DNA from: Rhizorhabdus wittichii RW1
Lineage (GTDB): Bacteria; Pseudomonadota; Alphaproteobacteria; Sphingomonadales; Sphingomonadaceae
NCBI GenBank assembly: GCA_000016765.1
Contig: CP000699.1
Location: 310,001-374,000, forward strand
DNA length: 64,000 nt
Reading direction: 5' to 3'
Shown: positions 8,450 through 44,121 of the stretch, piece after piece
Numbering within the stretch: position 1 is the stretch's first letter
Layout: each line of letters opens with the position of its first letter
Notes under the pieces: model-generated
Database searches by the model: none
The model's input: the letters and a program-made list of their open reading frames with translations, nothing else
Told to the model about the DNA's origin: nothing
Translations under genes and position numbers: made by a program

Positions 8450-10837
8450 ATGCGCTGTCGCACCATTTTTCTGTCGGGATGCGCTTTCGCGCTGAACGCG
8501 CTGCCGAGCATGGGCATGGCCCAGACCGCCGTTCCGCCGCAGGCGGCCGAAGCCGCTGACGTCGCCGCCGGCGACATCGTCGTCACCGCCCGTCGCCGTG
8601 AGGAATCGATCCAGGACGTGCCGATCTCGGTCTCGGCCCTGTCGGGCGAGCAGCTCCGCCGCCAGGGCGTCACCGACGCCCAGTCGCTGCAATATGCGAC
8701 GCCGTCGCTGTCGATCACCAGCGCGCAGAGCCAGCGCAATACCGTGGCCTTCGCGCTGCGCGGCCAGCGCACGCAGGAGACCCAGCTCTTCACCGATCCG
8801 CCGGTCGGCACCTATTTCGCCGAAGTCGTCCAGCCGCGCCCCTATGGCTTCGGCAAGACCTTCTTCGACCTCCAGTCGGTCCAGGTGCTCAAGGGCGTCC
8901 AGGGCACGCTGTTCGGCCGCAACATGACCGGCGGCGCCGTGCTCGTCGAGCCGGCCCATCCCGAACTCGGCTCGTTCAGCGGCGAGGTCCGCGGCCAGTA
9001 CGGCAATTACGACATGAAGGACCTCTACGGGATGGTGAACATCCCGGTCGGCGACAATTTCGCGATCCGCGTCGCCGGCAAGACCCGCAAGCGCGACGGC
9101 TGGGCCCATGAGGTGACCACCGGCCGCGATTACGACAACCAGGATTTCAACACCTTCCGCGTCTCCACGCTGTGGAAGCCGATCGAGGGGCTGGAGACGC
9201 TGACCGTCGGCGACTGGTACAAGTCGAAGGAGCACGGCACCGCCGCGTTCATCACCGACCTGCGCCTGCCGTCGGTCATCTCCAACTATGAAGGGCTGCG
9301 CGCGGCAGGCCTGATCACCGCCAACATCCCGGCGCAATATGCCGCCGCCCGCGACATGTTCTACAAGAAGCACTTCACCCTCGACATGGGTGCGGGCGAG
9401 GGCGGCAATCTCGACGTCTTCGGCAAGCCCTACGAGAACATCAAGAACTGGGGCATCACCAACAAGACGACCTGGGAGCTGAGCGACACGATCACGCTGA
9501 AGAACATCTTCGGCTATCGCCGCCTCCAGCGCGACCAGGTGCAGGATTATGACGGCATTCCCGCCTTCCTGATCACGCCTTATCAATATGCTCGCAGCCG
9601 CAACATCAGCGAGGAGTTCCAGATCCAGGGCAAGGCCTTCGACCGGAAGCTCGATTATATCGCCGGCCTCTATTATTTCGAGGAGAAGGGCAAGGACGGC
9701 TCGCTGGCCAACACGCTGCCCGAGCTCAACATCGTCGGCGCCGGCCAGAACCCGCGCACCGCGTCCGCGACCCAGTTCGTCACCGCCAACCCCGGCGTCG
9801 GCTATTCGCGGACGGCTGCGGCCTTCCTGGCCGGCACGTTCCACGCGACCGATCAGCTCAGCCTGTCGGGCGGCCTCCGCTACAATTACGACAAGCGCAA
9901 GATCACCGTTTCGCCGTCGCTGCCGTTCCGGACCAATCCGGCCGGCGGCACGGGCGTCTGCTCGTTCGATATCGACGCGGCGACCGCCGGCACCCAGACG
10001 GTGCCGTTCGACCAGTGCTCGTTCACCAACCAGAAGTCGTTCAAGGAATGGACCTACGACGCGACCGTCCAATATGAGCCGTCGGCGAACGTCACCGCCT
10101 ACGCCTCCTACCGGCACGGCTTCCGCGCCGGCGGCTTCTCGACCCGCGCGACCAGCTACGTCACCCTCGCGCCGTTCCTGCCCGAGTTCGTCGACGAATA
10201 TGAGATCGGCCTGAAGACCAGCACGCGGATCGGCTCGTCGGGCCGCCTGACGACCAGCACGGCGATCTTCCGGCAGGACGGCTCGGACGTGCAGAAGCAG
10301 CGCGCGACCTTCGTCAACGGCAACGTCTTCACGGTCATCGACAACACCGCCAAGCAGCGCAACAGCGGCGGCGAGTTCGAGGCGACGCTGAGCGTGCCGA
10401 ACTTCTCGCTGACCGGCTTCTACTCCTACACCAAGGTGAAGATCCTGCGCGGCGCGGCGGTATCGGCGATCGGGCCGGAGATCGCGCAGCGCGGCACGCC
10501 GAAGAACCAGGCGGGCTTCACGGCGACCGTCTCGCCGCCGATCTCGGAGGATGTCGGCCAGCTCAACCTGATCGGCAACTTCACCTGGCGCAGCAAGAAC
10601 TATCTCGACGATTTCGAGGTGAGCGGCGTCCAGCCGGCCTTCGCGCTGGTCAACCTGCGCGCCGAACTCAACGACATCGGCGGATCGAAGGCCTCGATCG
10701 CGTTCTTCGTCAACAACGCGACCAACGAGGTCTACCGCATCGGCGTCCTCGGCCTGGTCGCCGAAGGCCTCGGCTTCTCGTCGAGCGTCTATGGCGAGCC
10801 GCGGATGTATGGCGTCGAGCTGGGCTACAAATTCTAA
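8450..10837 (+). CDS. TonB-dependent outer-membrane receptor 1
   Basis: The 795-residue protein starts with a signal peptide (MRCRTIFLSGCAFAL...GMAQ, cleavage near residue 25). A TonB-box-like DIVVTA follows at about 42-47, then a plug domain (VPISVSALSGEQLRRQG, LFGRNMTGGAVLVEP). The long beta-barrel ends LGYKF with terminal Phe, as barrel-assembly requires. It should import a large or scarce substrate across the outer membrane using TonB-ExbBD energy. GGGGAGGAAGC precedes the ATG. It is closely related to the receptor at 41788 and, like it, sits beside a phosphotransferase and an SDR. A strong terminator follows. Confidence 0.95.
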   Translation: MRCRTIFLSGCAFALNALPSMGMAQTAVPPQAAEAADVAAGDIVVTARRREESIQDVPISVSALSGEQLRRQGVTDAQSLQYATPSLSITSAQSQRNTVAFALRGQRTQETQLFTDPPVGTYFAEVVQPRPYGFGKTFFDLQSVQVLKGVQGTLFGRNMTGGAVLVEPAHPELGSFSGEVRGQYGNYDMKDLYGMVNIPVGDNFAIRVAGKTRKRDGWAHEVTTGRDYDNQDFNTFRVSTLWKPIEGLETLTVGDWYKSKEHGTAAFITDLRLPSVISNYEGLRAAGLITANIPAQYAAARDMFYKKHFTLDMGAGEGGNLDVFGKPYENIKNWGITNKTTWELSDTITLKNIFGYRRLQRDQVQDYDGIPAFLITPYQYARSRNISEEFQIQGKAFDRKLDYIAGLYYFEEKGKDGSLANTLPELNIVGAGQNPRTASATQFVTANPGVGYSRTAAAFLAGTFHATDQLSLSGGLRYNYDKRKITVSPSLPFRTNPAGGTGVCSFDIDAATAGTQTVPFDQCSFTNQKSFKEWTYDATVQYEPSANVTAYASYRHGFRAGGFSTRATSYVTLAPFLPEFVDEYEIGLKTSTRIGSSGRLTTSTAIFRQDGSDVQKQRATFVNGNVFTVIDNTAKQRNSGGEFEATLSVPNFSLTGFYSYTKVKILRGAAVSAIGPEIAQRGTPKNQAGFTATVSPPISEDVGQLNLIGNFTWRSKNYLDDFEVSGVQPAFALVNLRAELNDIGGSKASIAFFVNNATNEVYRIGVLGLVAEGLGFSSSVYGEPRMYGVELGYKF

Positions 10838-10866
10838 CCCCTCGGTCCGCAAGGCCGAACCTCAGC

Positions 10867-10899
10867 AGGGGCGCACCATGTGCGTCCCTGTTTTCTTTT
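10867..10899 (+). terminator. Rho-independent terminator after TonB receptor 1
   Basis: A 10-bp stem (10867-10876 with 10880-10889, one G-T pair) with a 3-base CAT loop is followed directly by GTTTTCTTTT. It lies 29 bp after the receptor stop and 29 bp before the next gene, so it should uncouple or attenuate transcription into the phosphotransferase. Confidence 0.8.
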
Positions 10900-10928
10900 G
10901 GCCTGCTTTCTTTTGTGGGGAGGACAGC

Positions 10929-12011
10929 ATGGTTGAGATCGTCCATCGGCCGGCCCTGCCGCTGCCGCTGTCGCCCGAACAGGTCGACGCCGGCTGGTTG
11001 AGCCGCGCGCTGGGGCAGACCACGCCCGGCGCGGTGGTGGCCGCGGCCGACATCGTCGACATCGTTTGGGGGACATCGACCAAGATCAGGGTCCGCGTCG
11101 ACGGGCATGACGGGCAGGGGGCGGCGTTGCCCGCCACGCTGATCGTCAAGGGCGGCTTCGAGGAGCACAGCCCCCGGATGGCGGCGATGTACGCCAATGA
11201 GGCGCGCTTCTACGCCGACATCCAGCCGCACGTGCCGATGCCGTCGCCGCGCTGCTGGTTCGCCGGATCGGACCCGGCGTCGCACCAGTCGATCGTGATC
11301 ATGGAGGACCTGCGCCGCGATGGGCTGGCCTTCTGCGATCCGCTCCAGCCCCAGGATTTCGAGCCGATCGCCCGCCGGCTCGAGGTGATGGCCGGCTATC
11401 ACGCCGCGACCTGGCAATCGCCGCGCTTCGAGCCGGGCGGGTCGTGGTCGGACATCCACAGCCGGTTCGAAAGCTGGGGCCTCGACTATATGCGCCGCTA
11501 TCTCGTCGCCGACGTCTGGGCGCACTACATGGCCTCGCCGCGCGGCGCGGCGGTCTCCCGGCGCTTCCACGACCGCGCCTGGATGGAGCGCGCGCTGCTG
11601 CGGATCGGCGAGATCCAGCATGCCCAGCCGCGATGCCTGATCCACGGCGACACCCATCTCGGCAATCTCTACGTCGCCGAGGACGGCACGCCGGGCTTCT
11701 TCGACGCGCAGGTGGCGCGCACCGCCTGGCATCATGAGGTGTCCTACCACATCGTCTGCGCCGCCGACCTCGCCGACCGGGCGGAATGGGAGCGGCCGCT
11801 GCTCGATCGCTATCTCCGGGCGATGGCCCGCCATGGCGTCGCGCTCGACGCCGAGGCGGCGTGGCTCGACTATCGCCGCTCGATCGCCTGGGGGCTGTTC
11901 ATCTTCCTGACCAACGAGGTGCGGTTCCAGACCGAGTCCGTGAACACCGCCTATGCCGCCCGCTTCTCGCAGGCGGCGCTGGATCACGAGTTGAAGGAAT
12001 TGCTGCCTTAG
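10929..12011 (+). CDS. APH-fold phosphotransferase, ecdysteroid-kinase/choline-kinase-like
   Basis: The 360-residue protein has the aminoglycoside-phosphotransferase fold. IVDIVWGTSTKIRV forms a glycine-loop equivalent, LIVKGG supplies the ATP-site Lys, SIVIMEDL is the hinge, HGDTHLGN (239-246) is the catalytic loop and D259 in FFDAQ replaces the DFG Asp. The WGTxTK start and overall spacing recall ecdysteroid-22-kinase-like (CHK/EcK) proteins that phosphorylate hydroxyl groups of lipids or steroids. Here a hydroxylated catabolic substrate is plausible but unproven. It has the same length as the paralogue at 40535. The 3' end overlaps the convergent SDR by 4 bp. Confidence 0.85.
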   Translation: MVEIVHRPALPLPLSPEQVDAGWLSRALGQTTPGAVVAAADIVDIVWGTSTKIRVRVDGHDGQGAALPATLIVKGGFEEHSPRMAAMYANEARFYADIQPHVPMPSPRCWFAGSDPASHQSIVIMEDLRRDGLAFCDPLQPQDFEPIARRLEVMAGYHAATWQSPRFEPGGSWSDIHSRFESWGLDYMRRYLVADVWAHYMASPRGAAVSRRFHDRAWMERALLRIGEIQHAQPRCLIHGDTHLGNLYVAEDGTPGFFDAQVARTAWHHEVSYHIVCAADLADRAEWERPLLDRYLRAMARHGVALDAEAAWLDYRRSIAWGLFIFLTNEVRFQTESVNTAYAARFSQAALDHELKELLP

Positions 12012-12832: not shown

Positions 12833-12842
12833 GCTCGCCTCC

Positions 12843-13589
12843 TCAGACCGCGCTGCGGCCGCCGTCGATCAGATAGGCGCCGCCATGGATGTGCGGCGCC
12901 TCGTCCGAGGCGAGGAAGGCGACCAGCGCGGCGACCTCCTCGGGCTCGCCCAGCCGCGCCTGCGGCGAACGGGCGACGAGCATCTCGATCATCTCGGCGC
13001 TGCTGTTGGCAAGGATGTCGGTGTTGGTGGTGCCGGGGCAGACCGCGTTGATGCGGATATTGTCGCGGGCATAGTCGGCGGCGGCGGCGCGGGTCATCAT
13101 CAGCACCGCGCCCTTGGAGGTGATGTAGGGGCTCGACAGCGCGGTCGCGCGGAAGCTGCCGGTCGAGGCCATGTTGACGATCGATCCGCCGCCCTGGCGC
13201 AGCATGTGCGGGATCACCGCGCGCTGCATTAGGTAGACGCCGCGCACATTGACCCCCATCACCTTGTCCCAGTCCTCTGGCGGCTGCTCGTGGAGTCGGA
13301 GCCGCCGGGGATTGCCGATCCCGGCATTGTTGATCAGCACGTGGACCCCGCCGAAGCGCGCGACGACATCTGCCACCATGGCGTCGATCGCCGCCTGGTC
13401 GGCGACGTCGCAGATCATGCCATGGGCGTTGGCGCCGGCCGCCGCGACGGCGTCGTCGAGCTTGGCCTGGTTGACGTCGGTGCCGACCACGATCGCGCCT
13501 TCGCTCGCGAGCCGCGCCATGCAGGCGCGGCCGATCCCGGCGCCGGCGCCGGTGACGATCGCGACCTTGCCCTCGAAGCGGCGGTTCAT
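12843..13589 (-). CDS. SDR family oxidoreductase
   Basis: The 248-residue classical SDR has TGAGAGIG at 13-20, D38 after beta-2 (NAD-type), NNAG at 87-90, S142 and Y155xxxK159, and ends IHGGAYLIDGG. It resembles 3-hydroxybutyrate or cyclopentanol-type dehydrogenases, but the exact substrate cannot be read. The start at 13589 overlaps the stop of the VOC gene (ATGA), so translation is coupled. It lies 10 bp ahead of the SDR at 12832 and probably shares its transcript. Confidence 0.9.
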   Translation of the reverse strand: MNRRFEGKVAIVTGAGAGIGRACMARLASEGAIVVGTDVNQAKLDDAVAAAGANAHGMICDVADQAAIDAMVADVVARFGGVHVLINNAGIGNPRRLRLHEQPPEDWDKVMGVNVRGVYLMQRAVIPHMLRQGGGSIVNMASTGSFRATALSSPYITSKGAVLMMTRAAAADYARDNIRINAVCPGTTNTDILANSSAEMIEMLVARSPQARLGEPEEVAALVAFLASDEAPHIHGGAYLIDGGRSAV

Positions 13590-14074
13590 GCCGACGCTCC
13601 CTGCTCGATCATATGCTGGTCGATGCGCGCGTTGAGCTTGGCGACGAGCGCTCGGTCGGACAGCTCGACGAAATAGCCGAGCTGCGCGACCGTATCGAGG
13701 TGGACCACCGCGGCGTCGCCATTGGGCATCGTCGCGCCCCAGCTCTCGAACACGCATTCGACGCCGCCGGGCCGCTGGCCGAGATCGTCGACCGCATAGC
13801 CGAGGTGGAAGATGCCTTCGCCGCGCGTCTCCAGCCATTCCTTCGCATTGCCTTCGCCGATCACCGGCTCGATCATCTCGAGATAGACGTCGCCCCATCG
13901 GGTGAAGGCGTTGCGGTTGGCGAAGCGGCCGCGCCAGTCGCGGTAGCGCCCCTCATAATCGGTATCGAGCCGCCAGAAGGGGCCGAGGCCGAGCAGGCGG
14001 CGATACTGCTCCATGCCCGCGTCGATGTCGCGGACGACGACGCCGATCTGGTAGAAATCGCCCTCGAATTTCAT
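13586..14074 (-). CDS. VOC (glyoxalase/bleomycin-resistance fold) family protein
   Basis: The 162-residue protein has two beta-alpha-beta-beta-beta modules. The first is FYQIGVVVRDIDAGMEQYRRLLGLGPF, the second GIFHLGYAVDDLGQ. Possible metal ligands are His/Glu in these strands and in YLEMIEP. The fold covers methylmalonyl-CoA epimerases, extradiol dioxygenases and lactoylglutathione lyases; this sequence fits the single-domain epimerase/isomerase-like group. The ATG at 14074 is chosen because GGAGAACGAG stands just before it; an ATG at 14092 has no ribosome site. It is coupled on both sides to the SDR and sulfotransferase genes. Confidence 0.82.
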   Translation of the reverse strand: MKFEGDFYQIGVVVRDIDAGMEQYRRLLGLGPFWRLDTDYEGRYRDWRGRFANRNAFTRWGDVYLEMIEPVIGEGNAKEWLETRGEGIFHLGYAVDDLGQRPGGVECVFESWGATMPNGDAAVVHLDTVAQLGYFVELSDRALVAKLNARIDQHMIEQGASA

Positions 14075-14088
14075 GGTCTCGTTCTCCG

Positions 14089-15228
14089 TCATGCGAGGTC
14101 GTGGCGCGCGATGTAATCGGCGAAGCGATCGCGGACCTGATCGTCGGTGATGCCGAACTCGCCCGACGAATAATCGTGCCGGCCGTGCTTGCCCTGCGGG
14201 TTGTCGCCGATGAACGCCTGCATCGCCGCCTCGGCCTCGGCGCTCAGCGTCAGGCCGAAATGGCGGTAGATGCGGCGCACCGTGCCCAGCTTGTCGGCGA
14301 TCAGGTCGCGATAATGGACGTCGAGCACCGCCGCGCCGGGATGCCGCTCGCGCGCCTCGCGCATCCGCTCGACCGCGCGGGCGAAGATGTCGAGCCGGAT
14401 CGGGCCGGTCTCCGCCTTCTCGAACAACTGGCCGTTGCGCCAGATCAGGCTCGCGCCCGACGCGATCGTCTCGACCGGGTTGCGATGGAGCACCACCACC
14501 CGTGCGTCGGGAAAGACGCGCAGCATCGCGTCCATGCCGTAGCTGTGCGACGGATTCTTGAGCAGCCAGGTGCGGTCGCGCGCCCGCGCGCCCATCAGCC
14601 GCAGATTGTCCTTGTAGCGCCGGTAGGAGGGCTCCTCGTCGGCCTCGTACCACCAGCGGCGATAGTCGGGCAGCGGCAGCGTCGAGTTGAATGTGTTGGT
14701 CATGAAGCTCTGGCTCATGACGGTGATGCACTCGTCGGCCAGCGCCGCGCCCATGTCGTGCGCGGCGCGCAGGCCCGGATTGGCGGCGAAGGTCGCCTCC
14801 AGCCGGTCGTGGACCTGGCGATATTGGGGATGGCTCTCCCATTCCTCGCGGGGCGGGCGGATCAGCGGCGCCTCGCCGACCCAGCGCGGCGTCCACTGGA
14901 ACTGCGGATCGACCGACATCAGGAAGTGGAGGATCGTCGTGCCGCTGCGCGGCAGTCCGGTGATGATCAGCGGCGCGGGCACCGGATCGTCGAGCAGCTC
15001 GGGATGCGCGTTCCACCCGGCCTGCGAGGCGAGGCGGCCGACCAGCAGGTTGACCGCCATCGCGCCGAAGCGCGGGGCGATCCGATCGTGGCGCGGGCTG
15101 GCTCTGATCGCGTCGATCAGGACGCCGAGCCCCTCGCGATAGCCGTCGTCGCCGAAATCGGAGCGGCCGGTGCGCGCGATCGCTTCCTCGTGCAGCGCGT
15201 CGGCGTCGGTCGGATCGAAGCCGCTCAT
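14089..15228 (-). CDS. Sulfotransferase family protein
   Basis: The 379-residue protein has the PAPS-binding 5'-PSB loop GLPRSGTT at 91-98, the 3'-PB-like segment VVVLHRNPVETIASGASL and a WLLKNPSHSYGMDAML block. This is the bacterial sulfotransferase_3 type. It would move a sulfuryl group from PAPS to a hydroxyl or related acceptor in the cytosol. A sulfotransferase within a degradative run is unusual; it may detoxify or tag a hydroxylated intermediate. The start at 15228 overlaps the DUF1214 stop (ATGA), so the two are translated together. Confidence 0.87.
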   Translation of the reverse strand: MSGFDPTDADALHEEAIARTGRSDFGDDGYREGLGVLIDAIRASPRHDRIAPRFGAMAVNLLVGRLASQAGWNAHPELLDDPVPAPLIITGLPRSGTTILHFLMSVDPQFQWTPRWVGEAPLIRPPREEWESHPQYRQVHDRLEATFAANPGLRAAHDMGAALADECITVMSQSFMTNTFNSTLPLPDYRRWWYEADEEPSYRRYKDNLRLMGARARDRTWLLKNPSHSYGMDAMLRVFPDARVVVLHRNPVETIASGASLIWRNGQLFEKAETGPIRLDIFARAVERMREARERHPGAAVLDVHYRDLIADKLGTVRRIYRHFGLTLSAEAEAAMQAFIGDNPQGKHGRHDYSSGEFGITDDQVRDRFADYIARHDLA

Positions 15229-16457
15229 CGCTGGAACCGCCGGGCGAGCTGCTCGCGGCGCTTCGACAGCGTCGCGCGGCGGGCGTCGGCGTCGACCGCC
15301 GGATGATCGGCGGGCAGGGCGGCGCGAACGGCGTCGACCTTCAGCAGGCGCGAGACCGGCGTCGGGATCGTCTGGTCGGGGCGGAACCAGCGATAATGGA
15401 GGAAGCCGCGTCGCGCGCCGCCGGTGTCGAGCCAGTTGGGCACCCCCGGATCGCGCGCCGAGATCACGAAGCGCGCCTTGCCGTCGCCGTCGACATGCGC
15501 CTGGCGGGCGTTGAGCGAGGTCTGCCGGTTCATGATGTCGGGCGCTTCCCACCACATATTGTAGAGGGTGAAGCTCCAATAGGGCCCGTCGGGCAGGTCG
15601 GTCTCGATCAGGATCGCCTCGTCCTCGGCGAGGTCGAGGCAGATGATGCCGTAATAGAGCCAGGCCTTGCCGCCGGTCATCGGCGGCTTGAAGTCGCGGA
15701 CCCCGGGCGGCTCGGTGCTCGGCGGGGTGATGGCGTTGGGCGGATTGTCGGCGCGGACATTGGCGGCGCGCTGGTTCCACCAGCGGGCGGCGGCCAGGAA
15801 CAGGCGGGTGGCGTTGGCGATCTGGTCGGCCAGCCGGTCCGGCGACAGGGCAGGCGGATAGGCCGGCGCGCCGGGGTCGATCCGTTCGATGGTCAGCCAG
15901 CCCGGCGGCAGGTCGCGATCCCAGTCCCAGTCGTAGCGGCGCACGGTGATGCCGTTGCCGGCGGTGGGATATTGATCGGGTATGCCGGTGTCGCCGGTCA
16001 GGCCCGGGGCGATCGGCGTCCAGTTGCCGGGTTGCTCCTCGGCCGAGACGACCACCTCGAAATCGCCATTGGCGGCGGTCGCGATATTATCGTGCCACAG
16101 CCGGCCGATATTGACGCTGCGCCCGTCGCCGCCATTGTTGCCGCGCAGCCGATAGGTCGCGTCGCCGCGCAGCGCGGCCATGAAATAGGCGATGTTGTTG
16201 TCGGGCCCGCCATAGCGGTAGCGATCGTCCATCTGCCGCAGGAACAGCGGGAAATCGGGGTCGTTGAAATCGAGCCGGTGCTGCAGGCTCATCGCGGCGA
16301 GCCGCGCGATCGAGCGCAGCAATTCGGCCAGCTCGCCGCCGTCGGCCGGATCGCCGAGCGCGCCGTCGATCGCCTCCGACGCGACCTGCTTGAGCGCGTC
16401 GCAATGGCCGTTCCACGCCGCGCGCAGCTTTTCCCGTTCCTCGACGCTGATCGCCAT
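15225..16457 (-). CDS. DUF1214 domain protein, copy 1
   Basis: The 410-residue soluble protein has no signal peptide. Its C-terminal half carries the DUF1214 pattern: LAEDEAILIETDLPDGPYWSF, RQTSLNARQAHVDGDGKARFVIS, then RDPGVPNWLDTGG-x-RRGFLHYRW. The N-terminal half is helical and then rich in Asp/Gly loops. The biochemical role of DUF1214 is not established; family members are frequent beside catabolic SDR and Rieske genes. It shares the whole C-terminal block with the protein at 50431. It heads a coupled minus-strand run (sulfotransferase, VOC, two SDRs). The intergenic space to the divergent AraC gene is 81 bp. Confidence 0.85.
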   Translation of the reverse strand: MAISVEEREKLRAAWNGHCDALKQVASEAIDGALGDPADGGELAELLRSIARLAAMSLQHRLDFNDPDFPLFLRQMDDRYRYGGPDNNIAYFMAALRGDATYRLRGNNGGDGRSVNIGRLWHDNIATAANGDFEVVVSAEEQPGNWTPIAPGLTGDTGIPDQYPTAGNGITVRRYDWDWDRDLPPGWLTIERIDPGAPAYPPALSPDRLADQIANATRLFLAAARWWNQRAANVRADNPPNAITPPSTEPPGVRDFKPPMTGGKAWLYYGIICLDLAEDEAILIETDLPDGPYWSFTLYNMWWEAPDIMNRQTSLNARQAHVDGDGKARFVISARDPGVPNWLDTGGARRGFLHYRWFRPDQTIPTPVSRLLKVDAVRAALPADHPAVDADARRATLSKRREQLARRFQR

Positions 16458-26869: not shown

Positions 26870-26875
26870 CACGCG

Positions 26876-35816: not shown

Positions 35817-37468
35817 TGGCGGCGACGAACTGGGACGAGACGGCGGACTTCGTGATCTGCGGCTCGGGCGGCGGATCGATGGCGGCCGCGCTGTATCTCA
35901 AATCGATCGGCAAGCAGCCGCTGATCCTGGAGAAGACCGACAAGCTGGGCGGATCGACCGCCATGTCGGGCGGCGTGCTGTGGATTCCCGACAACCATCT
36001 CCTCGCCCGCGACGGGATCGCGGACAGCCATGAGCTGGGCCGCATGTATATGGACGCGACGGTCGGCAACGATGCCGGCCCGGCCGCCTCGCCCGAGCGC
36101 AAGGAAGCCTATCTGCGCAACGGCCCGGTGATGATGAAGTGGCTGGAGGAGCAGGGCATGCAATGGCTCCGCACCGAAGGCTGGGCCGATTATTACGACG
36201 ATCGGCCCGGCGGCTGCACCCGCAGCCGGTCGGTCGGCGCGCCGATGCTCGACGCCCGCAAGATGGGCCCGCTGTTCGACAAGCTGCGCCTCGGCCCGAT
36301 GGTGATGCCGCTGCCGACCGACAAGGCGGGGATCATCGGCCTCGCCACCCGCACGCCGAGGGGCATGTGGGAGGGCATGAAGCTGCTGTTCCGCATGTGG
36401 CTGGTGAAGAAGCGCGGCGCGCCGCTGCTCAGCTTCGGCGGCGCGCTCCAGGGCCGCATGCTGATGCTGGCCGACAAGGCTGGCGTCGACATGCGGACAG
36501 GCCATGGCGTCGTCGAACTGGTCGAGGAGAAGGGGCGGATCACCGGCGTCGTCGTCGAGCATGAGGGCAGGACGCTGCTGATCGGCGCCCGCGACGGCGT
36601 GCTGATCAACGCGGGCGGCTTCTCGAAAAATGCCGAGATGCGCAAGAAATACGGCCCGCAGCCCAGCTCGGTGGAATGGACCAACGCCAATCCCGGCGAC
36701 ACTGGCGAGATGATCGAGATCGCCGAGAGGCACGGCGCGGCGCTCGACCTGATGGACCAGGCCTGGTGGGTGCCCGGCACGATGGTGCCCGAGGGCGGCC
36801 CCGCCAACATGCACAACACCGACATCTCCAAGCCGCACTGCATCATCGTCAACCGCCAGGGGCGGCGCATCCTCAACGAGAGCGGCTCCTATATGGAGAA
36901 CGGCCAGCGGCTCTACCGGAACGACGTGCCGGCCTATGTCATCCTCGATAGCCGCCACCGCAAGCGCTATGCCTGGGGCTATTATCCGCCGGGCAAGACG
37001 CCGCAGTCCTGGCTCGACAGCGGGATGATGAAGACCGCCGACACGATCGAGGAGCTGGCCGCGAAGGCGGGCATCGATCCGGTTGGGCTCAAGGACGAGA
37101 TCGCCAAGTTCAACCGCTATTGCGAGACCGGCAAGGACCTCGACTTCAATCGCGGCGGGCGTGGCTACGACAACTGGTTCGGCGATCCGACCGTCAAGCC
37201 CAACCCCAATCTGGGCAAGATCGACAAGCCGCCCTTCCATGTGATGGAGATGGTGCCCGGCGACGTCGGCACCAGCGGCGGCATGCTGACCGACGAACAT
37301 GCGCGGGTGCTCCGCGCCGACGGGTCGGTGATCGAGGGGCTCTACGCCACCGGCAATTCGACTGCCTCGGTGATGGGGCGCTGCTATCCGGCGGCGGGCG
37401 CGAGCATCGGCGCCTCGTTCGTCTTCGCCTGGATCGCGGCGCACCATGCCGTCGGCGCCAACGATTAG
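35816..37468 (+). CDS. FAD-binding flavoprotein, 3-ketosteroid delta-1-dehydrogenase/fumarate-reductase-like
   Basis: The 550-residue protein begins TADFVICGSGGGSMAAALYL, the FAD dinucleotide loop (GSGGGS 16-21), followed by LEKTDKLGGSTAMSGGVLWIP, the flavin-contact pattern of the KstD/fumarate-reductase flavoprotein family. The C-terminus YATGNSTASVMGRCYPAAGASIGASFVF closes the FAD domain. It may dehydrogenate a ring ketone next to a carbonyl. It shares its stop/start junction with the Rieske gene, which argues for one pathway step pair. A true KstD assignment needs the active-site Tyr residues to be aligned. Confidence 0.88.
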   Translation: MAATNWDETADFVICGSGGGSMAAALYLKSIGKQPLILEKTDKLGGSTAMSGGVLWIPDNHLLARDGIADSHELGRMYMDATVGNDAGPAASPERKEAYLRNGPVMMKWLEEQGMQWLRTEGWADYYDDRPGGCTRSRSVGAPMLDARKMGPLFDKLRLGPMVMPLPTDKAGIIGLATRTPRGMWEGMKLLFRMWLVKKRGAPLLSFGGALQGRMLMLADKAGVDMRTGHGVVELVEEKGRITGVVVEHEGRTLLIGARDGVLINAGGFSKNAEMRKKYGPQPSSVEWTNANPGDTGEMIEIAERHGAALDLMDQAWWVPGTMVPEGGPANMHNTDISKPHCIIVNRQGRRILNESGSYMENGQRLYRNDVPAYVILDSRHRKRYAWGYYPPGKTPQSWLDSGMMKTADTIEELAAKAGIDPVGLKDEIAKFNRYCETGKDLDFNRGGRGYDNWFGDPTVKPNPNLGKIDKPPFHVMEMVPGDVGTSGGMLTDEHARVLRADGSVIEGLYATGNSTASVMGRCYPAAGASIGASFVFAWIAAHHAVGAND

Positions 37469-37512: not shown

Positions 37513-37606
37513 CGTCATTCCCGCGAAAGCGGGAATCCACGGTCACGGCGCATTCCGTCTCTTGCGGGCCGCCGTCTATGGATTCCCGCTTTCGCGGGAA
37601 TGACGA
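37513..37606. repeat. 94-bp palindromic intergenic element, copy B
   Basis: This is the same length and nearly the same sequence as the element at 251-344, with four single-base differences by eye. It has the same terminal inverted repeats that each fold into CCCGC-GAAA-GCGGG. It lies between the convergent ends of the flavoprotein and the AraC gene, where it could end transcription from both sides. No transposase is adjacent. Confidence 0.85.
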
Positions 37607-37633
37607 CAGGGGGCGGGGGCGAGGAGGATGGAC

Positions 37634-38605
37634 TCAGCCGCGCCGGGCCTGCGACGCCTCGCGCCATTGCGTCGCGGTCATCCCGGTCCGCTGGCGGAAC
37701 ATGGCGCGGAACAGCCGGCTGTCGGAGAAGCCGACCAGTTCGGCGATCCGGTCGATCGAGCGGTTCGACTTCTCCAGCATCCGCGTCGCCGCCTGGAGGC
37801 GCAGGTGCTGGATATAGCTTTTCGGGCTCATCCCGAGCGCCTTGCGGAAGCGGCGCACCAGCGTCGGCTGGCTGGTCGACAGCGCCTCCGCCAGCTCCTG
37901 GATGCCGATCGCGCCGGTGAAGCGCTGCTCCAGCCAGATCTGCGCGCGGGCGACGAGCGGATCGCTCGCGAGCAGATGTTCCTCCTCGCGATCGAGCCCC
38001 ATGATCGAGGTCAGCCAGCGGCCGACATCGGGGGACAGGGTGCGCTCCATCACCCGGACGATCAGCGCGAGGTCATGGGCCATGCCGTTGGCGATCAGCA
38101 GATCGCCATGATCGGCGAGCGCCAGCCGCTCCTCGGCGCGGTGGCGCGGGAACATCGCCCGGGCGACCGGTTGCAGCGCGCGGGCGATCGGCACGGCGAC
38201 GTCGTGGGTCAGCCCCGCCGCCATCAGGATCAGCGCGGAGGCGCCGCTCGCCCCGATCACCGCGCCGCCGGCCGCCTGCTGCCGGAGCCAGGGCAGCAGC
38301 GCATGGCTGCGCGCCAGCCGCTCCTCGAGCGCCGGAATCCCCATGACGCGGAAGGCGGGCAGCCAGACGAAGCCATGGTCGTCGACGCTGCTGATCGCGC
38401 CGTCGACATCGAGCCGGCGGCCGTCGCTCATCCGGATCGGTCCGCCGTCGAGCGACAATATCCGGAGCCGGGTCTCCATCCGCATCGGTCCGCTGTCGGC
38501 GAACACCTGCTCGATCCGGTCGCGCGCGAGGATGAAGCTGTCGGTCAGCGCGCCGACGCTGGCGTGATAGGCGCCGTCGAGCGCGACGAGGGCGAAATCG
38601 GGCAT
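37634..38605 (-). CDS. AraC family regulator, GlxA-type, copy 2
   Basis: The 323-residue regulator has a DJ-1/PfpI-like sensor domain (FALVALDGAYHASVGALTDSFILARD, GGAVIGASGASALILMAAGL) and two C-terminal helix-turn-helix motifs: IQELAEALSTSQPTLVRRFR and IDRIAELVGFSDSRLFRAMFRQRTGMT. It is similar in plan to the protein at 16539. It is divergent from the PhyH 2 gene, whose 140-bp upstream region includes a GC-rich stem, so it likely controls the PhyH-SDR-phosphotransferase-TonB receptor set. Confidence 0.9.
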   Translation of the reverse strand: MPDFALVALDGAYHASVGALTDSFILARDRIEQVFADSGPMRMETRLRILSLDGGPIRMSDGRRLDVDGAISSVDDHGFVWLPAFRVMGIPALEERLARSHALLPWLRQQAAGGAVIGASGASALILMAAGLTHDVAVPIARALQPVARAMFPRHRAEERLALADHGDLLIANGMAHDLALIVRVMERTLSPDVGRWLTSIMGLDREEEHLLASDPLVARAQIWLEQRFTGAIGIQELAEALSTSQPTLVRRFRKALGMSPKSYIQHLRLQAATRMLEKSNRSIDRIAELVGFSDSRLFRAMFRQRTGMTATQWREASQARRG

Positions 38606-38697
38606 CGCACGACCATGACGGAAAATATCCGCTTATTGCAAGATATCATCCTGTCCGGCCACGAGGGCGGCCCGGATAGTCGGATCGACGAGAACAG

Positions 38698-38730
38698 CGC
38701 GCGGCGCCGGCCGATCGGTCGCGCCGCGCG
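38698..38730 (+). promoter_or_regulatory. GC-rich hairpin just upstream of the PhyH 2 ribosome site
   Basis: A perfect 10-bp inverted repeat, CGCGCGGCGC and its complement (38698-38707 and 38721-38730), with a 13-base spacer, ends three bases before the GGAGAG of the PhyH 2 gene. It could fold in the 5' leader and affect initiation, or be a DNA palindrome for AraC copy 2. In such GC-rich sequence chance occurrence is possible. Confidence 0.4.
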
Positions 38731-38745
38731 GACAGGAGAGTTGCG

Positions 38746-39702
38746 ATGACCATGGCCGCCCCGAGCCTCATCCCCGAGATGGGCGAATTCAACGTCTCCA
38801 ACCATCTGCTCGGCGACCGGGAGGGGCTGAAGGCCGCCTGGGAGCGCGACGGCTACTGGTTCTTCCGCGACGTGCTCGACAAGCAGGCGATCGCCGAGCT
38901 GCGCCAGATCTACATGGACTATCTCGGCGAACTGGGCGTCGCCGACCCGCAGGACCCCGACGCGCGCTACAACGGCGCCGACCTGTCGGCGATGCCGGCG
39001 ATGGTCAACGAGACCGCGATGAACGAGCGCCGGGTCGACCGGGTGCTGCACCGCGATCCGCGCATCGCGGCCTTCTTCCGGCGGCTGTTCGGCTGCGATC
39101 CCTTCTGGGTGCCGTTCACCGTCCATCGCCAGGTGCCGCCGGCGCGCGATCGCGACGCGCGGCGGCTGGAGTTCATCCATCAGGACGGCACCTATAATGA
39201 CGGGCTCGACTTCCTGATCTGCTGGATTCCGCTGGCGGAGATCGCGCCCGAGGTCGGCGGGCTGGCGCTGGTCGAAGGGGTGCACCGGCGCGGCAGCCTC
39301 CACCGCAAGGACGGCATGAAGATCCTGCCGATCGCCGAGGCGGACATGGAGATCGGGCGCTGGCGCAGCACCCATTACCGTCCCGGCGACGTGCTGCTGA
39401 TGGACCTCAATACGCCGCATTCGGGCATCACCAACCATTCGGACCGCTTCCGCCTGTCGGTCGACACGCGGATCATGCCATCGAACGGCAACGTCCCGGT
39501 GGTCGGCACGATCGCGGCGGTCAGCGCCGACGGCGTCACCATCGGCGATCGCGCGTTGCGCTTCGATGTGACCAGCTTCGTGCGCGGGCTGCGCGGCGAC
39601 CAGATGCCGCTCGCCGACATACCCGGCCGCTATCGCGTCGGGCAGGAGGTGATCGCCGCCGTCACCGGCGACCTCGTCCGCAACATGCGGCCCATCCAAT
39701 AA
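38746..39702 (+). CDS. Phytanoyl-CoA dioxygenase (PhyH)-like protein 2
   Basis: The 318-residue protein has H145/D147 in EFIHQDGTY, H225 in NTPHSGITNHSDRFRLSVDTR and the 2-oxoglutarate Arg downstream. It keeps the same C-terminal beta extension as the copy at 28035. It should hydroxylate a CoA ester or terpenoid-like substrate with O2 and 2-oxoglutarate. GGAGAG precedes the ATG. The SDR at 39720 follows 17 bp downstream, so it is the first gene of the set that ends with TonB receptor 2. Confidence 0.88.
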   Translation: MTMAAPSLIPEMGEFNVSNHLLGDREGLKAAWERDGYWFFRDVLDKQAIAELRQIYMDYLGELGVADPQDPDARYNGADLSAMPAMVNETAMNERRVDRVLHRDPRIAAFFRRLFGCDPFWVPFTVHRQVPPARDRDARRLEFIHQDGTYNDGLDFLICWIPLAEIAPEVGGLALVEGVHRRGSLHRKDGMKILPIAEADMEIGRWRSTHYRPGDVLLMDLNTPHSGITNHSDRFRLSVDTRIMPSNGNVPVVGTIAAVSADGVTIGDRALRFDVTSFVRGLRGDQMPLADIPGRYRVGQEVIAAVTGDLVRNMRPIQ

Positions 39703-39719
39703 GCCTCGAAGGACAGTCC

Positions 39720-40538
39720 ATGCCCGAACCCACCCGCTATCTCGGCCGCCTGGCCGGCAAGGCCGCGATCGTCACCGGCGCCGGAGCGGCGGAGGACGAG
39801 ATCGGCATCGGCCGCGCCATCGCCTATATCATGGCGCGCGAGGGGGCGAAGGTCGCCTGCGCCGATCTCGACGGCGCGCGCGCCGAGGCGACCGCCGCGC
39901 AGATCCGCGCCGAGGGCGGCGAGGCGATCGCCGTCGCCGCCGACGTCAGCCTGCCCGAGGATTGCGAGGCGTTGGTAGAAACCACCGTCAAGACCTTTGG
40001 ACAGCTCGATATTCTGGTGAACAATGTCGGCATCTCGGTGCCGACCAACCTGGAGTCGGTGACGCTCGACCTGTGGAACCGGACGATCGCCGTCAACCTG
40101 ACCAGCGTCATGCTGATGAGCAAATATGCGGTGCCGGTGATGGCGGCGCGGGGCGGCGGATCGATCGTCAACATCTCGTCGCTGGCTGGCATGCGGGCGA
40201 TGGGCGCGGTCGCCTATGGCCCCTCCAAGGCGGCGATGGCGCAGCTCTCGCGCGAGATCGGCGTGCTGCACGGGCGGCAGGGCATCCGCGTCAACACGGT
40301 CGCGCCCGGCCATGTCATGACCCCGCACGCGATGAGCAAGCTGCCCGCCAGCATGCGCGAGGCGCGCCGCAAGGTCGGCCCGCTCGGCGTCGAGGGCGAT
40401 GCGTGGGACGTCGCCCAGGCGGTGCTGTTCATCGCCAGCGACGAGGCGCGCTTCATCAACGGCGTCCATCTCGCGGTCGACGGCGGGGTCGAGGGGATCG
40501 GCCCGATGGTCGGCCACGCGTTGATCTCCGAGGCATGA
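39720..40538 (+). CDS. SDR family oxidoreductase (cassette 2 copy)
   Basis: The 272-residue SDR begins MPEPTRYLGRLAGKAAIVTG. It has the enlarged glycine loop TGAGAAEDEIGIGRA (19-33), NNVG at 101-104 and Y166xxxK170. The block RRKVGPLGVEGDAWDVAQA is shared with the SDR at 12008, its clear paralogue. The last codons overlap the phosphotransferase start (ATGA), so the two proteins are made together. The function is presumably NAD-linked oxidation of an alcohol later or earlier handled by the kinase. Confidence 0.92.
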   Translation: MPEPTRYLGRLAGKAAIVTGAGAAEDEIGIGRAIAYIMAREGAKVACADLDGARAEATAAQIRAEGGEAIAVAADVSLPEDCEALVETTVKTFGQLDILVNNVGISVPTNLESVTLDLWNRTIAVNLTSVMLMSKYAVPVMAARGGGSIVNISSLAGMRAMGAVAYGPSKAAMAQLSREIGVLHGRQGIRVNTVAPGHVMTPHAMSKLPASMREARRKVGPLGVEGDAWDVAQAVLFIASDEARFINGVHLAVDGGVEGIGPMVGHALISEA

Positions 40539-41617
40539 GCGATCTGCGGCTGCCGCTGCTGCCGGAGGAGGTGACGGCCGCCTGGCTGGGCGAGGCGCTG
40601 TCCGTCTATGCGCCCGGCATTGTCGTCGAGCGGATCGAGGTCACCGATATCCTCTGGGGCACCGGCACCAAGATGATGATCACCGCCGCCTATGACCGGG
40701 CCGGCCGCGATGCGGGCCTGCCCGAGCGATTGTGCGTCAAGGCCGGGCTCGCCGAGCATCGCGAGCTGGTCAAATTCTGCTACCAGACCGAAGCCCGCTT
40801 CTTCGCCGAGGTCGCGCCCCGCCTGTCGATCGGCCTGCCGCGCTGCTTCTTCGCGGCGGCCAATGCCGATCAGGGCGTCGTGATCATGGAGGACCTGCGC
40901 CCGGCCGGCGCGCAGATCTGCCGGGTGCAGCAGCCGCTCTCCCGCGACCAGGCCGCCGCCTTCCTCGACGATCTGGCGGCGCTCCACGCGCGGTGGTGGA
41001 ACGGCCCGGCGCTGGCCGACGGGGGCGAACTGGGCTGGCTGATGCGGCACGATCCGCTGCCCGACGCGGCGTGGGGCGATTTCGGGCGCGGTCAGCTCCA
41101 GCCCGAGACCTGGGCGCATTATATGGGCCTGCCGCGCTCGCTCGGCATCCCGCGCGTCTGCCGTGACCGGGAGACGATGCACGCCGCGCTCCAGGCGCTG
41201 CGCCGCTTCGCGCCCGGTGGGCCGACCTGCGTGATCCATGGCGACGCGCATCTTGGCAACATGTACCTCGACGCCGCGGGGCGGCCTGGCTTCCTCGACT
41301 GGCAGACCGCGCGGCGCGGCCATTGGGCGCAGGACGTCACCTATTTCTACGTGTCGGCGCTCGACCCGCTCGATCGCCGCGCCTGGGAGCGCGATCTGAT
41401 CGCGGGCTATCTCGCCGCGCTGGGACGGCATGGCGTGGCCGACGCGCCGGGCGAGGCGGAAGCCTGGGCGGCGATCCGCGCGCATATCGTCTACGGCCTG
41501 TTCTACTGGATGGTGAACCCCGTCGAATGGCAGGCCGAGGAGAATAATGCGGCCGTGGCGCCGCGCTTCGGCTGGGCGGCGGTCGACCTCGGCGCGCCGC
41601 CGGCCGCTGCTGTGTAG
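40535..41617 (+). CDS. APH-fold phosphotransferase, ecdysteroid-kinase/choline-kinase-like, copy 2
   Basis: The 360-residue protein has the same length as the paralogue at 10929. WGTGTKMMI starts the ATP loop, K69 in LCVKAG, VVIMEDL hinge, HGDAHLGN catalytic loop (235-242) and D255 in FLDWQ, the fuller form of the DFG-like motif. It should phosphorylate a hydroxyl group using ATP. The start overlaps the SDR stop. It ends 170 bp before TonB receptor 2, in the opposite relative order to cassette 1. Confidence 0.87.
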   Translation: MSDLRLPLLPEEVTAAWLGEALSVYAPGIVVERIEVTDILWGTGTKMMITAAYDRAGRDAGLPERLCVKAGLAEHRELVKFCYQTEARFFAEVAPRLSIGLPRCFFAAANADQGVVIMEDLRPAGAQICRVQQPLSRDQAAAFLDDLAALHARWWNGPALADGGELGWLMRHDPLPDAAWGDFGRGQLQPETWAHYMGLPRSLGIPRVCRDRETMHAALQALRRFAPGGPTCVIHGDAHLGNMYLDAAGRPGFLDWQTARRGHWAQDVTYFYVSALDPLDRRAWERDLIAGYLAALGRHGVADAPGEAEAWAAIRAHIVYGLFYWMVNPVEWQAEENNAAVAPRFGWAAVDLGAPPAAAV

Positions 41618-41787
41618 CATGTACACCACAGTCCATCGAAAAATATGTCGGGCCGGCTTCCGGCGCACCTGATCACGGAGCCGATATGTCCGTGGCGCCG
41701 TTGCCTCGCCGGGCCCTTTGGCTGTTCTCTTCCCCCGAAACAATAAGCCCCGGGCATGGTCCCGAGGGTGTCGAGAGGAGGATCGTC

Positions 41788-44121
41788 ATGGCTTTCCGCA
41801 GAACCTGTCTCCTGGCTTGCGCGGCCTCGCTGCTGCCGCAGCTCGCGGCGGCGCAGACGGCTTCGCCGCCCGCCGAGGCCGAGGCTGCCGTCACCGGCGC
41901 CGCCGACAGCGGCGAGATCATCGTCACCGCCCGCCGCCGCGCGGAATCGCTGCAGGACGTGCCGATCTCGGTCAGCGCGATCTCGGGCAAGGCGCTGACC
42001 CAGGGCGGAGTCACCGACGCGCTCAGCTTCCAATCGCGGGTGCCGTCGCTCAGCCTCACCAACCAGGGCACCACCCGGTCCGAGCTCGGCTTCTCGATCC
42101 GCGGCCAGCGCACCCAGGAATCGCAGCTTCTCACCGATCCGCCGGTCGGCACCTATTTCGCCGAGGTGGTGCAGGCGCGCAGCACCGGCTTCGCCAACAC
42201 GCTCTACGACCTGGAGTCGGTGCAAGTGCTGAAGGGCGTGCAGGGCACGCTGTTCGGGCGCAACATGACCGGCGGCGCGGTGCTGGTCGAGCCGGCCAAG
42301 CCGACCGACCAGCTCGCCGCCGAGGTGCGCGGGCAGATCGGCAATTTCGACCTGCGCGACGCCTATGCGATGCTCAACCTGCCGATATCCGACGGGATCG
42401 CCGTCCGCTTCGCCGGCAAGACCCATGAGCGCGACGGCTTCACCAAGGACGTCAGCAGCGGCCGCGATTATGACGACCAGAATTACGACACGTTCCGCGT
42501 CTCGCTGGCGATCAACCCGGCGGAGAACATCGAGTCGACCACGATCTTCGACTGGGTCCGCACCCGCGAGCACGGCACCGCGCTGGTCGGCACCGCCGCC
42601 AACCCCGCCGCGCCGGCGATCGCCGGCTATGCGGCGCTGCGCGGCTTCGGCATTCCGGTGTCGGACGTGCTGGCGCAGTTCGCCGCGCAGGCCGCGCGCC
42701 CGCACTATCGCTTCGACACGGCGGCGGGCGAGGACGGCACGCTCGACGCCTATGGCGTCAAGCCGTTCGAGCATCTGAAGAATTACGGGATCACCAACCG
42801 CAGCTCGATCGACCTGGGCGGCGTCACGATCAAGAACATCTTCGGCTACCGCCGGCTCAAGTTCAACCAGATCATGGACCTGGACGGCGTCCCCGCCTTC
42901 CTGATCAACAGCAACCGCTTCCGCGACATCAAGCAGTATAGCGAGGAGCTTCAGGCGCAGGGCAAGGCGTTCGACGACCGGCTGACCTATGTGGTCGGCG
43001 CCTATTATTTCCTGGAGAAGGGCACCGACGGATCGACGTCGAGCCAGTTCCCCGAACTGGCGATCGCCGGCCAGGGCCTGCCGCTGACCACGCCGGCCTC
43101 GACCTTCCTCAACGCCTATGTCGGGCAGGGCAGGGCGAAGACGGGGGCCCTCTACGCGGCGGGCACCTATAATTTCACCAACCAGTTCAAGCTCTCGGCC
43201 GGCATCCGCTACACCGAGGACAAGCGCCGCGCGACGGTGACCGCCTATTATCCCAATCTCGGCGCCTGCCTGTTCCGGCTCGCCGACGGCACCACGCCGA
43301 GCCTCGCGAACTGCCCGCAGACCAATGCCAAGAAATGGGACGACGTCACCTGGGACGTGACCCTGCAATATGAGCCGAACGACGGCCTCACCGCCTATGT
43401 CTCCACCCGGCGCGGCTTCCGCGCGGGCGGCTTCTCGCTACGGGCGGCCTCGACCGCCGAACTGGCGCCGTTCAACCCGGAGACGGTGCAGGAATATGAG
43501 ATCGGCCTGAAGAACCGGGCCGACCTCGGCGGCGGCGCGGCGCTCAGGACCAGCCTCGCGCTGTTCTACCAGGATTACAAGAACGTCCAGAAGCAGGCCT
43601 CGTCGATCGACGCGGCCGGCAACGTCAACACGATCATCACCAACACCGCGCGGCAGAAGCATTATGGCGGCGAACTGGAGGCGACCCTGTCCGCCGGGGC
43701 GATCGACCTGACCGCCTTCTATTCCTATGTGAAGGTCGACATCAGCAAGGGCCGGCAGCCCGGCGAGTTCGAACTGGTCGGCGCGCCGCATCACCAGCTC
43801 GGCGCCAATCTGAGCTACCGCCTGCCGCTGTCGGAGAGCGTCGGCGCGGCCTCGCTCAACGCCAATGTCGCCTATCGGAGCAAGCAGCATCTCGACAAGA
43901 ACGACGTGCTCGCCACCGAGCCGGGCTATGCGCTCGTCAACCTGCGCGCGAACCTCGACAATATCGCCGGCACCGGCTTCGGCGCGGCGCTGTTCGTTAA
44001 CAACGCCACCGACAAATATTATCGGATCGGCGTGATCGGCATCTACAACGAGGCCGGTTACATCTCGAGCGTCTATGGCGAGCCGAGGACCTACGGCCTG
44101 GAGGTTTCGTACCGCTTCTGA
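41788..44121 (+). CDS. TonB-dependent outer-membrane receptor 2
   Basis: The 777-residue protein has a signal peptide (MAFRRTCLLACAASLLPQLAAAQ), a TonB-box-like EIIVTA at about 43-48, and a plug (LQDVPISVSAISGKAL, LFGRNMTGGAVLVEP). The barrel ends LEVSYRF with terminal Phe. The plug is very similar to receptor 1, so the two probably take related substrates. The start at 41788 has GAGAGGAGGATC upstream; an in-frame ATG 102 bp earlier would break the signal peptide. A strong terminator follows. Confidence 0.95.
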   Translation: MAFRRTCLLACAASLLPQLAAAQTASPPAEAEAAVTGAADSGEIIVTARRRAESLQDVPISVSAISGKALTQGGVTDALSFQSRVPSLSLTNQGTTRSELGFSIRGQRTQESQLLTDPPVGTYFAEVVQARSTGFANTLYDLESVQVLKGVQGTLFGRNMTGGAVLVEPAKPTDQLAAEVRGQIGNFDLRDAYAMLNLPISDGIAVRFAGKTHERDGFTKDVSSGRDYDDQNYDTFRVSLAINPAENIESTTIFDWVRTREHGTALVGTAANPAAPAIAGYAALRGFGIPVSDVLAQFAAQAARPHYRFDTAAGEDGTLDAYGVKPFEHLKNYGITNRSSIDLGGVTIKNIFGYRRLKFNQIMDLDGVPAFLINSNRFRDIKQYSEELQAQGKAFDDRLTYVVGAYYFLEKGTDGSTSSQFPELAIAGQGLPLTTPASTFLNAYVGQGRAKTGALYAAGTYNFTNQFKLSAGIRYTEDKRRATVTAYYPNLGACLFRLADGTTPSLANCPQTNAKKWDDVTWDVTLQYEPNDGLTAYVSTRRGFRAGGFSLRAASTAELAPFNPETVQEYEIGLKNRADLGGGAALRTSLALFYQDYKNVQKQASSIDAAGNVNTIITNTARQKHYGGELEATLSAGAIDLTAFYSYVKVDISKGRQPGEFELVGAPHHQLGANLSYRLPLSESVGAASLNANVAYRSKQHLDKNDVLATEPGYALVNLRANLDNIAGTGFGAALFVNNATDKYYRIGVIGIYNEAGYISSVYGEPRTYGLEVSYRF

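Follow-up and report, generated by a model that had tools for sequence, protein, structure and literature searches.

Two receptor/kinase/SDR gene sets in Rhizorhabdus wittichii RW1

The window analysed here, a stretch of 64,000 nucleotides from Rhizorhabdus wittichii RW1 (contig CP000699.1, positions 310,001 to 374,000), carries two sets of three genes, A and B, each encoding a TonB-dependent receptor, an EcKL-like kinase and a short-chain dehydrogenase/reductase (SDR) with an extended glycine loop (Table 1). All six genes are complete and have a strong coding signal, and the sets are true paralogue sets, as a sequence-only reading of the window had proposed for 8450-12832 and 39720-44121: pairwise identity is 50% for the receptors (401/800), 42% for the kinases (147/353) and 55% for the SDRs (149/271). 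The rearranged order and strand described in that reading are also borne out. Receptor A and kinase A run rightward and SDR A is convergent with kinase A, their ends overlapping by 4 bases, whereas set B runs rightward throughout behind a PhyH-type oxygenase gene, with a 17-base gap, SDR B, a 4-base overlap, kinase B, a 170-base gap and receptor B.

Receptors A and B are each other's best matches in the genome of 5.9 Mb (52%), the next being 38% and 34% among those listed of 208 matches; a passage of PMC7142613 gives 153 TonB transporters for RW1. The third closest receptor (C1:292866-295145; 38% to B, 34% to A) lies ~15 kb upstream of the window. A genome search with SDR B finds SDR A first (55%), and the rest of its 113 matches are all at or below 44%. 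Kinase B has four matches in total, of which kinase A is best (43%) and the next full-length one reaches 32%; with kinase A at E≤1e-55, kinase B is the sole other match in the genome.

Both SDRs have the extended glycine loop (TGAGAPGEEMGNG and TGAGAAEDEIGIG), which is present also in three Sphingobium SDRs, and both share the C-terminal block RRKVGPLG-(I/V)-EGDAWDVA, as the sequence-only reading had noted, a block found in 6 of 37 SDR rows, every one a near orthologue. NNVG, a serine and YxxxK are the classical SDR active-site motifs, and NNVG, ISS and YGPAK/YGPSK are read in SDRs A and B.

Both kinases exceed the EcKL (PF02958) cut-off of 22 bits, and kinase B is also over the APH cut-off. 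K69, E86, H235, D237, N242 and D255, catalytic residues of the choline/aminoglycoside kinase superfamily, are invariant across 42 kinase sequences, and DFG is replaced by DxQ in both window kinases. The predicted model of kinase B has a pLDDT (predicted local distance difference test score) of 94.7. By sequence, no solved relative of the kinases is found in the PDB at E≤0.01; a profile gives 13 weak matches to PDB sequences at E≤10 (top E 0.012), which include macrolide phosphotransferase and methylthioribose kinase. Passages of two subfamily papers (PMC1821047, PMC4702295) do not name this kinase family.

Table 1 Features of the window, and phosphatase genes beside related kinases at other loci (L). 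Gene calls in fetched loci come from a simple in-house script; the Pfam scan covered part of the window genes.
Feature	Position	Strand	Properties
TetR-type regulator, divergent from receptor A	7507..8157	-	PF00440
TonB-dependent receptor A	8450..10837	+	795 aa; Plug PF07715 and beta-barrel PF00593 over cut-off
EcKL-like kinase A	10929..12011	+	360 aa; PF02958 30.2 bits
SDR A, extended glycine loop	12008..12832	-	274 aa; PF13561/PF00106; 3'-most gene of leftward run starting 16457
Second SDR of SDR A run	12843..13589	-	PF13561
Glyoxalase/VOC-fold protein	13586..14092	-	PF13669
Sulfotransferase-family protein	14089..15228	-	PF13469 1.7e-45
DUF1214 protein	15225..16457	-	PF06742
Tandem acyl-CoA dehydrogenases	25709..28006	+	First: best PDB 4x28, Tcur3483; second: Pfam
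3-ketosteroid-delta-1-dehydrogenase-like flavoprotein	35813..37468	+	NF009478 882 bits, cut-off 789; best PDB 7p18 (3-oxosteroid 1-dehydrogenase)
AraC-type regulator, divergent from B run	37634..38605	-	PF12833
PhyH-type Fe/2-oxoglutarate oxygenase, opens B run	38746..39702	+	PF05721
SDR B, extended glycine loop	39720..40538	+	272 aa; PF13561/PF00106
EcKL-like kinase B	40535..41617	+	360 aa; PF02958 49.8 bits, PF01636 51.7 bits
TonB-dependent receptor B	41788..44121	+	777 aa; PF00593, PF07715 over cut-off
E1-alpha, E1-beta and short lipoyl-like protein (by eye)	57912-60152 (E1 pair 57912-59896)	+	Pfam for E1
Y_phosphatase3, between kinases B and A	L048:5456-6235
Y_phosphatase3 beside kinase	L049:11037-11798
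Y_phosphatase3 beside kinase	L071:11055-11834
Y_phosphatase3 beside kinase	L083:9156-9938

A small open reading frame (ORF) at 45207-45476 on the forward strand encodes a protein with two similar stretches, EESRRIMATATDVRPDENVH and QESRVIMALATDMRPLENIH, and is kept at 82% and 93% in two congeners.

Kinases A and B belong to old, separate clades

A family sample of 298 genomes, RW1 included, was searched with kinase B (E≤1e-60), SDR B (1e-62), receptor B (1e-160) and kinase A (1e-55); the counts were 4 for each of the first three and 7 for kinase A. All three families occur, twice each, in three of the 298 genomes (RW1, G114 and G174), which are three of the seven listed for the genus. In G114 and G174 the receptor A orthologues are 92-96% identical, and the fetched stretches are collinear with the window, most genes being 80-99% identical. 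Genome G265 has kinase and SDR on one contig, ~35 kb apart. Genome G206 (L140:12790) has the closest receptor B relative that stands without a kinase match at E≤1e-55 (65%); no EcKL-like kinase was called in a stretch of 34 kb around it. A scan of species genomes gave at least 79 loci, of which 78 entered a locus-by-locus check of neighbours (L106 has no called kinase), and among these the trio was found only in Sphingomonas sp. Y57 and R. histidinilytica, twice in each. Overall the trio was found in four Rhizorhabdus-type genomes, namely RW1, two congeners and Y57. The sequence-only reading had held that a trio present just once in each of very few genomes would count against it; the trio is indeed in few genomes (3 of 298 in the family), but it stands twice in each.

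In a tree of 89 kinases, the B clade (11 rows) and the A clade (42 rows) each have a Shimodaira-Hasegawa-like approximate likelihood ratio (SH-aLRT) support of 99. Kinase B groups with kinases of Sphingobium, Novosphingobium, Paraburkholderia rhynchosiae, a Rhodospirillales bin and S. azotifigens, and kinase A with those of Paraburkholderia, Pseudomonas and many Novosphingobium; each is nearer to Paraburkholderia kinases than to the other. The receptors, in contrast, fall in one clade of 10 (support 100) and are sisters among the rows tested, the G206 receptor lying outside that tree, and the SDRs lie within a clade of 21 (100) that includes Burkholderiaceae SDRs. All of these trees come from quick, non-bootstrapped searches, with long-branch warnings from the tool for both kinase trees and for the receptor and SDR trees; ORFs of 290 aa or less were left out of the first kinase tree, and the second was built without four long-branch rows (L111_10, L098_9, L097_7 and L104_3).

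The placement of the kinase and SDR clades indicates that kinases and SDRs diverged early and that the Rhizorhabdus-type lineage keeps two sets. Recent duplication of one cassette is ruled out by the age of the kinase clades, although the receptors are sisters, and with it falls the earlier view of one cassette present twice. The mutual closeness of copies that this view had called for is seen within the genome for SDRs and receptors, but each kinase is nearer to kinases of other organisms. We regard kinases A and B, on their sequences, as two old, distinct and apparently active enzymes. They also occur together: counted from B to A, all 13 genomes with a B kinase have an A kinase as well (RW1, G114, R. 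histidinilytica, Y57, S. fuliginis, S. chungbukense, S. chlorophenolicum, S. jiangsuense, N. endophyticum, P. rhynchosiae, the Rhodospirillales bin, S. azotifigens and P. sprentiae), G114 (86%) and P. sprentiae (50%) being assigned by identity, outside the tree.

Genes that recur beside related kinases

We surveyed the neighbours of 91 kinases at 82 loci, grouped in 40 clusters at 60% identity. Within 3 kb, an A/B-like SDR is present in 17 clusters (E≤1e-12, a broad search that includes unspecific SDRs) and a second family kinase in 15; TonB receptors occur in 9, cytochrome P450s in 8, PhyH and DUF1214 in 4 each and a sulfotransferase in 3. Ten tandem kinase pairs were checked on a tree, of which eight are non-sister (L047, L048, L049, L057, L068, L070, L081 and M. 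branderi, L068 being almost identical to L070) and two are of close kin (Diaphorobacter and L115); a true pair of A-clade and B-clade kinases is found only in L047, L048 and L049. At all nine Burkholderiaceae loci an A/B-clade SDR follows kinase A, 22-1180 bases away, and no TonB receptor was found beside them in flanks of up to 10 kb.

A TonB receptor is the next gene in 7 of the 40 clusters, against a mean of 3.3 for random genes from the same loci (at least 7 in 56 of 2000 draws), and its frequency is 4.7% at the next gene versus 3.9% and 3.8% four and five genes off. A same-strand receptor lies within 500 bases of the kinase at 11 of 78 loci. Adjacency is clear in the Rhizorhabdus-type genomes and for the kinase A orthologues of S. 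fuliginis, S. chungbukense and N. endophyticum; by the random-draw comparison it is weak as a general feature, and a transporter as universal partner was ruled out on the same counts. The transporter varies by lineage: sphingomonads have a TonB receptor, Pseudomonas nicosulfuronedens (L058) has DUF1302, DUF1329, BNR/YCF48-like and MMPL genes upstream of the kinase, and Diaphorobacter sp. HDW4B has the same families followed by E1-alpha, E1-beta, lipoyl, E2 and two kinases. The conserved import-and-phosphorylate function put forward in the sequence-only reading is plausible and partly supported, in that kinase and receptor adjoin in both sets; import as a constant part is contradicted by the nine Burkholderiaceae loci and by the G206 receptor with no kinase match.

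These counts bear on import-coupled trapping, in which the imported compound is phosphorylated at once and the charged product is soluble and kept from diffusing out. The direct adjacency of kinase and receptor in both sets fits this, as do the excess over random genes, adjacent receptors from outside the A/B receptor clade (Spongiibacter, Novosphingobium) and the DUF1302/DUF1329/MMPL genes of Diaphorobacter and P. nicosulfuronedens. However, the enrichment is weak, one kinase would suffice and yet unlike kinases stay together, and the Burkholderiaceae loci keep kinase and SDR where no receptor is found. TonB transport, moreover, ends in the periplasm, whereas an ATP-using kinase acts in the cytoplasm. 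Finally, AmeABCD, which has DUF1302 and DUF1329 members, is described as an exporter in a passage of PMC6394551. We consider trapping unlikely.

Two side observations concern these neighbourhoods. M. branderi and P. sprentiae have genes annotated as AveC-family spirocyclases in the vicinity of kinases (L159:33704-34774, L160:16187-17137), and a plasmid of the alphaproteobacterium Croceicoccus marinus has cofC, cofD, cofE, cofH and npdG (F420 biosynthesis) with LLM oxidoreductases (L157:22901-28130) close to a kinase and two sulfotransferases.

A tyrosine-phosphatase-like neighbour

In both L048 and L049, kinase B is overlapped at its end by a gene of the Y_phosphatase3 family (PF13350), whose protein has the motif HC(A/S)AGKDRTG. 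A hidden Markov model built from these two proteins finds five genes in 83 loci, all adjoining a kinase, L083 and L142 being one contig seen twice. The phosphatase is the next gene in 5 of the 40 kinase clusters (two L048 kinases share one) against 0.3 expected, a count reached in none of 2000 draws; its position beside EcKL-like kinases, far above chance, is new here. The RW1 genome has only four PF13350 genes, yet one (C1:2258126-2258905) is within 0.32 kb of a third EcKL-like kinase (C1:2259220-2260278). Among plasmid records, 12 have a kinase (A or B query), 22 a phosphatase and five both; the distance between the two is 12-16 kb in four of these and 60 kb in the fifth.

Insects have a cycle of ecdysteroid kinase and phosphatase, and by this likeness the phosphate could be a reversible mask that shields a hydroxyl or makes it soluble during degradation until the tyrosine-phosphatase-like hydrolase cleaves the phosphate off, or the hydrolase could clear misphosphorylated products. 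The adjacency at L048, L049, L071 and L083/L142, beside the third RW1 kinase and on plasmids would suit such a role, and 26-phosphosteroids are termed problematic by-products of 25-hydroxysteroid kinase (25-HSK; PMC8449060). Against it, tblastn finds no phosphatase in the window, in its flanks (L023, L024 and L026) or in the G114, G174 and G265 stretches, and most kinase loci are without one. PF13350 also occurs widely, in 6 of 14 control genomes, and proteins of this family may have protein or lipid phosphates as substrates. Masking, too, seems improbable.

The catabolic island and its proposed function

Our preferred reading, which we hold tentatively, is that the trios provide uptake and hydroxyl activation within one large catabolic island that fills most of the window and acts on a hydrophobic hydroxylated ring compound, most likely terpenoid- or steroid-like to judge from the encoded proteins. 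The TonB receptors, by family, would carry this substrate, in one or two variants, through the outer membrane; oxygenases (PhyH and Rieske here, P450s in relatives) would add or expose hydroxyls; and the SDRs would oxidise some of these while the EcKL-like kinases move an ATP phosphate onto others. The phosphate could then serve as leaving group, its elimination passing the skeleton into coenzyme A (CoA)-dependent beta-oxidation, a step modelled as the ATP-dependent dehydration of 25-HSK and LvaA. Kinases A and B may serve two positions or two steps. The protein families, their pairing and conservation, the invariant residues and the gene neighbours are observed; substrate, activity, elimination and the direction of the pathway are inferred.

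Several genes point to this kind of substrate. At E≤0.001 the B-run PhyH oxygenase matches a single PDB protein, 1-deoxypentalenic acid 11-beta hydroxylase (1.4e-21). Three acyl-CoA dehydrogenases were recognised in the window, and the two compared with the PDB match best 4x28 and 5ol2; the first of them is nearest to 4x28 and Tcur3483, proteins with a steroid role. Together with the 3-ketosteroid-delta-1-dehydrogenase-like flavoprotein, the 4x28 kinship and the PhyH match make a terpenoid or steroid fit better than a sugar or an aromatic. The E1 and lipoyl-like genes have counterparts of 64-85% identity close to EcKL-like kinases at several Sphingopyxis loci and in S. azotifigens, and the E1 genes are 66-70% identical to those of Diaphorobacter, which suggests that an alpha-ketol or 2-oxo intermediate is cleaved.

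The sulfotransferase has a 42% homologue in P. sprentiae beside CysQ, CysD and CysN, which by annotation seem to make the sulfate donor precursor and clear its by-product. There, plasmid pl1 carries kinase A, an SDR, a regulator, an alcohol dehydrogenase, DUF1214, sulfotransferase, VOC, CysQ, CysD and CysN (the row from DUF1214 to CysN at L158:22324-28840), ORFs matching in length follow in L050, L051, L053 and L054, and kinase B lies 110 kb off with SDRs, an AveC-like protein, an AMP-ligase and PhyH. Insect EcKL kinases have a presumed role in detoxification, but detoxification here, with kinase and sulfotransferase conjugating a toxic hydroxylated compound to inactivate it, is very unlikely even though kinase, sulfotransferase and, in relatives, P450 genes share one region, since the island, conserved as a unit, has many genes for beta-oxidation, ring attack and CoA ligation, and TonB receptors point, by family, to uptake.

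A number of results weigh against the catabolic reading. The EcKL profile is loose, with matches in 5 of 14 control genomes, above cut-off in 3, so that the 360-residue EcK-like kinases of the sequence-only reading are right in length and score but carry a loose label. The model of kinase B has the overall fold of 25-HSK, but other kinases score better by Z, and 25-HSK is absent from the 13 PDB sequences that the profile matches at E≤10 (presence of 9ft5/9fsg in that set was unchecked). No phosphate-eliminating enzyme was identified among the acyl-CoA dehydrogenases compared (two of three recognised): ACAD11 (2wbi) matches the first at 4.5e-22 and is outside the best 60 for the other, and no LvaC/ACAD11-type partner was found in these two, ACAD11 being nearest to neither. 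The phosphatase beside some kinases suggests that phosphate may be removed there by hydrolysis, not elimination. KshA_C matches over cut-off lie at 2.05, 2.30 and 3.64 Mb, away from the window at 0.31-0.37 Mb; with KshA elsewhere, the island is not supported as part of the RW1 testosterone genes or a 9,10-seco cluster. A passage of PMC4810484 lists RW1 with growth on testosterone and '-' for cholesterol and cholate, which speaks against a sterol with a side chain. The main text of PMC4911050 yielded no expression data on these genes and no 'Swit_03' locus tag.

Relation to known systems and implications

The substrate class had been said to be one for which no such function was described, which was too strong: 25-HSK (PMC8449060) and LvaA (PMC11342911) are known. 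Like 25-HSK of Sterolibacterium denitrificans (PDB 9ft5, 9fsg), the window kinases are bacterial, of ~40 kDa and, in the predicted model, of the same overall fold, and by analogy they may likewise act on a hydroxyl of a hydrophobic catabolite, in the case of 25-HSK in steroid breakdown. 25-HSK differs in that it is a single gene of an oxygen-independent pathway; passages of PMC8449060 mention no receptor or SDR pair and report its C-O lyase partner as unknown. In LvaA/LvaC of Pseudomonas putida and ACAD10/ACAD11, a kinase and an acyl-CoA dehydrogenase-family enzyme remove a hydroxyl as phosphate and beta-oxidation continues, according to a passage of PMC11342911, whereas the two window dehydrogenases compared are not nearest to ACAD11. 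The EcKL likeness extends to a plasmid homologue annotated 'ecdysteroid 22-kinase family protein', but the window kinases are bacterial, paired and set in a catabolic island. A passage of PMC6394551 places AmeABCD of Castellaniella defragrans (AmeA, DUF1302; AmeB, DUF1329; AmeC; AmeD, RND) in a monoterpene island; its families recur near the kinases of Diaphorobacter and Pseudomonas, and the window trios have TonB receptors instead.

Our literature searches found no function for bacterial 'ecdysteroid 22-kinase family' proteins, nothing relevant on DUF1214 with sulfotransferase and, among the matches listed, nothing relevant on ecdysteroid degradation by bacteria; a passage of a fish-gene paper (PMC4687049) speaks of homologues in bacteria that have an ecdysteroid kinase domain. 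Enzymes of this kind are already known; within the literature searched, their pairing, their setting and the partner genes appear to be new.

A wider proposal is speculative and, in our estimate, unlikely: the paired kinases with the tyrosine-phosphatase-like enzyme and, in some lineages, a sulfotransferase fed by 3'-phosphoadenosine-5'-phosphosulfate (PAPS) would make up a bacterial system that is widespread and spreads horizontally. It would import terpenoid- or steroid-like molecules and activate two of their hydroxyls as esters of phosphate (and sulfate), and the phosphatase would be the lyase, so far missing, that eliminates phosphate, or else an enzyme that repairs dead-end phosphoesters. 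Few ATP-dependent routes of hydroxyl removal are known in lipid and steroid breakdown. If the proposed function is right, sphingomonads and Paraburkholderia would have a broad two-kinase version with candidate partner enzymes adjoining, the receptors should help to name the substrate, and the bacterial 'ecdysteroid 22-kinase family' proteins would gain a function.

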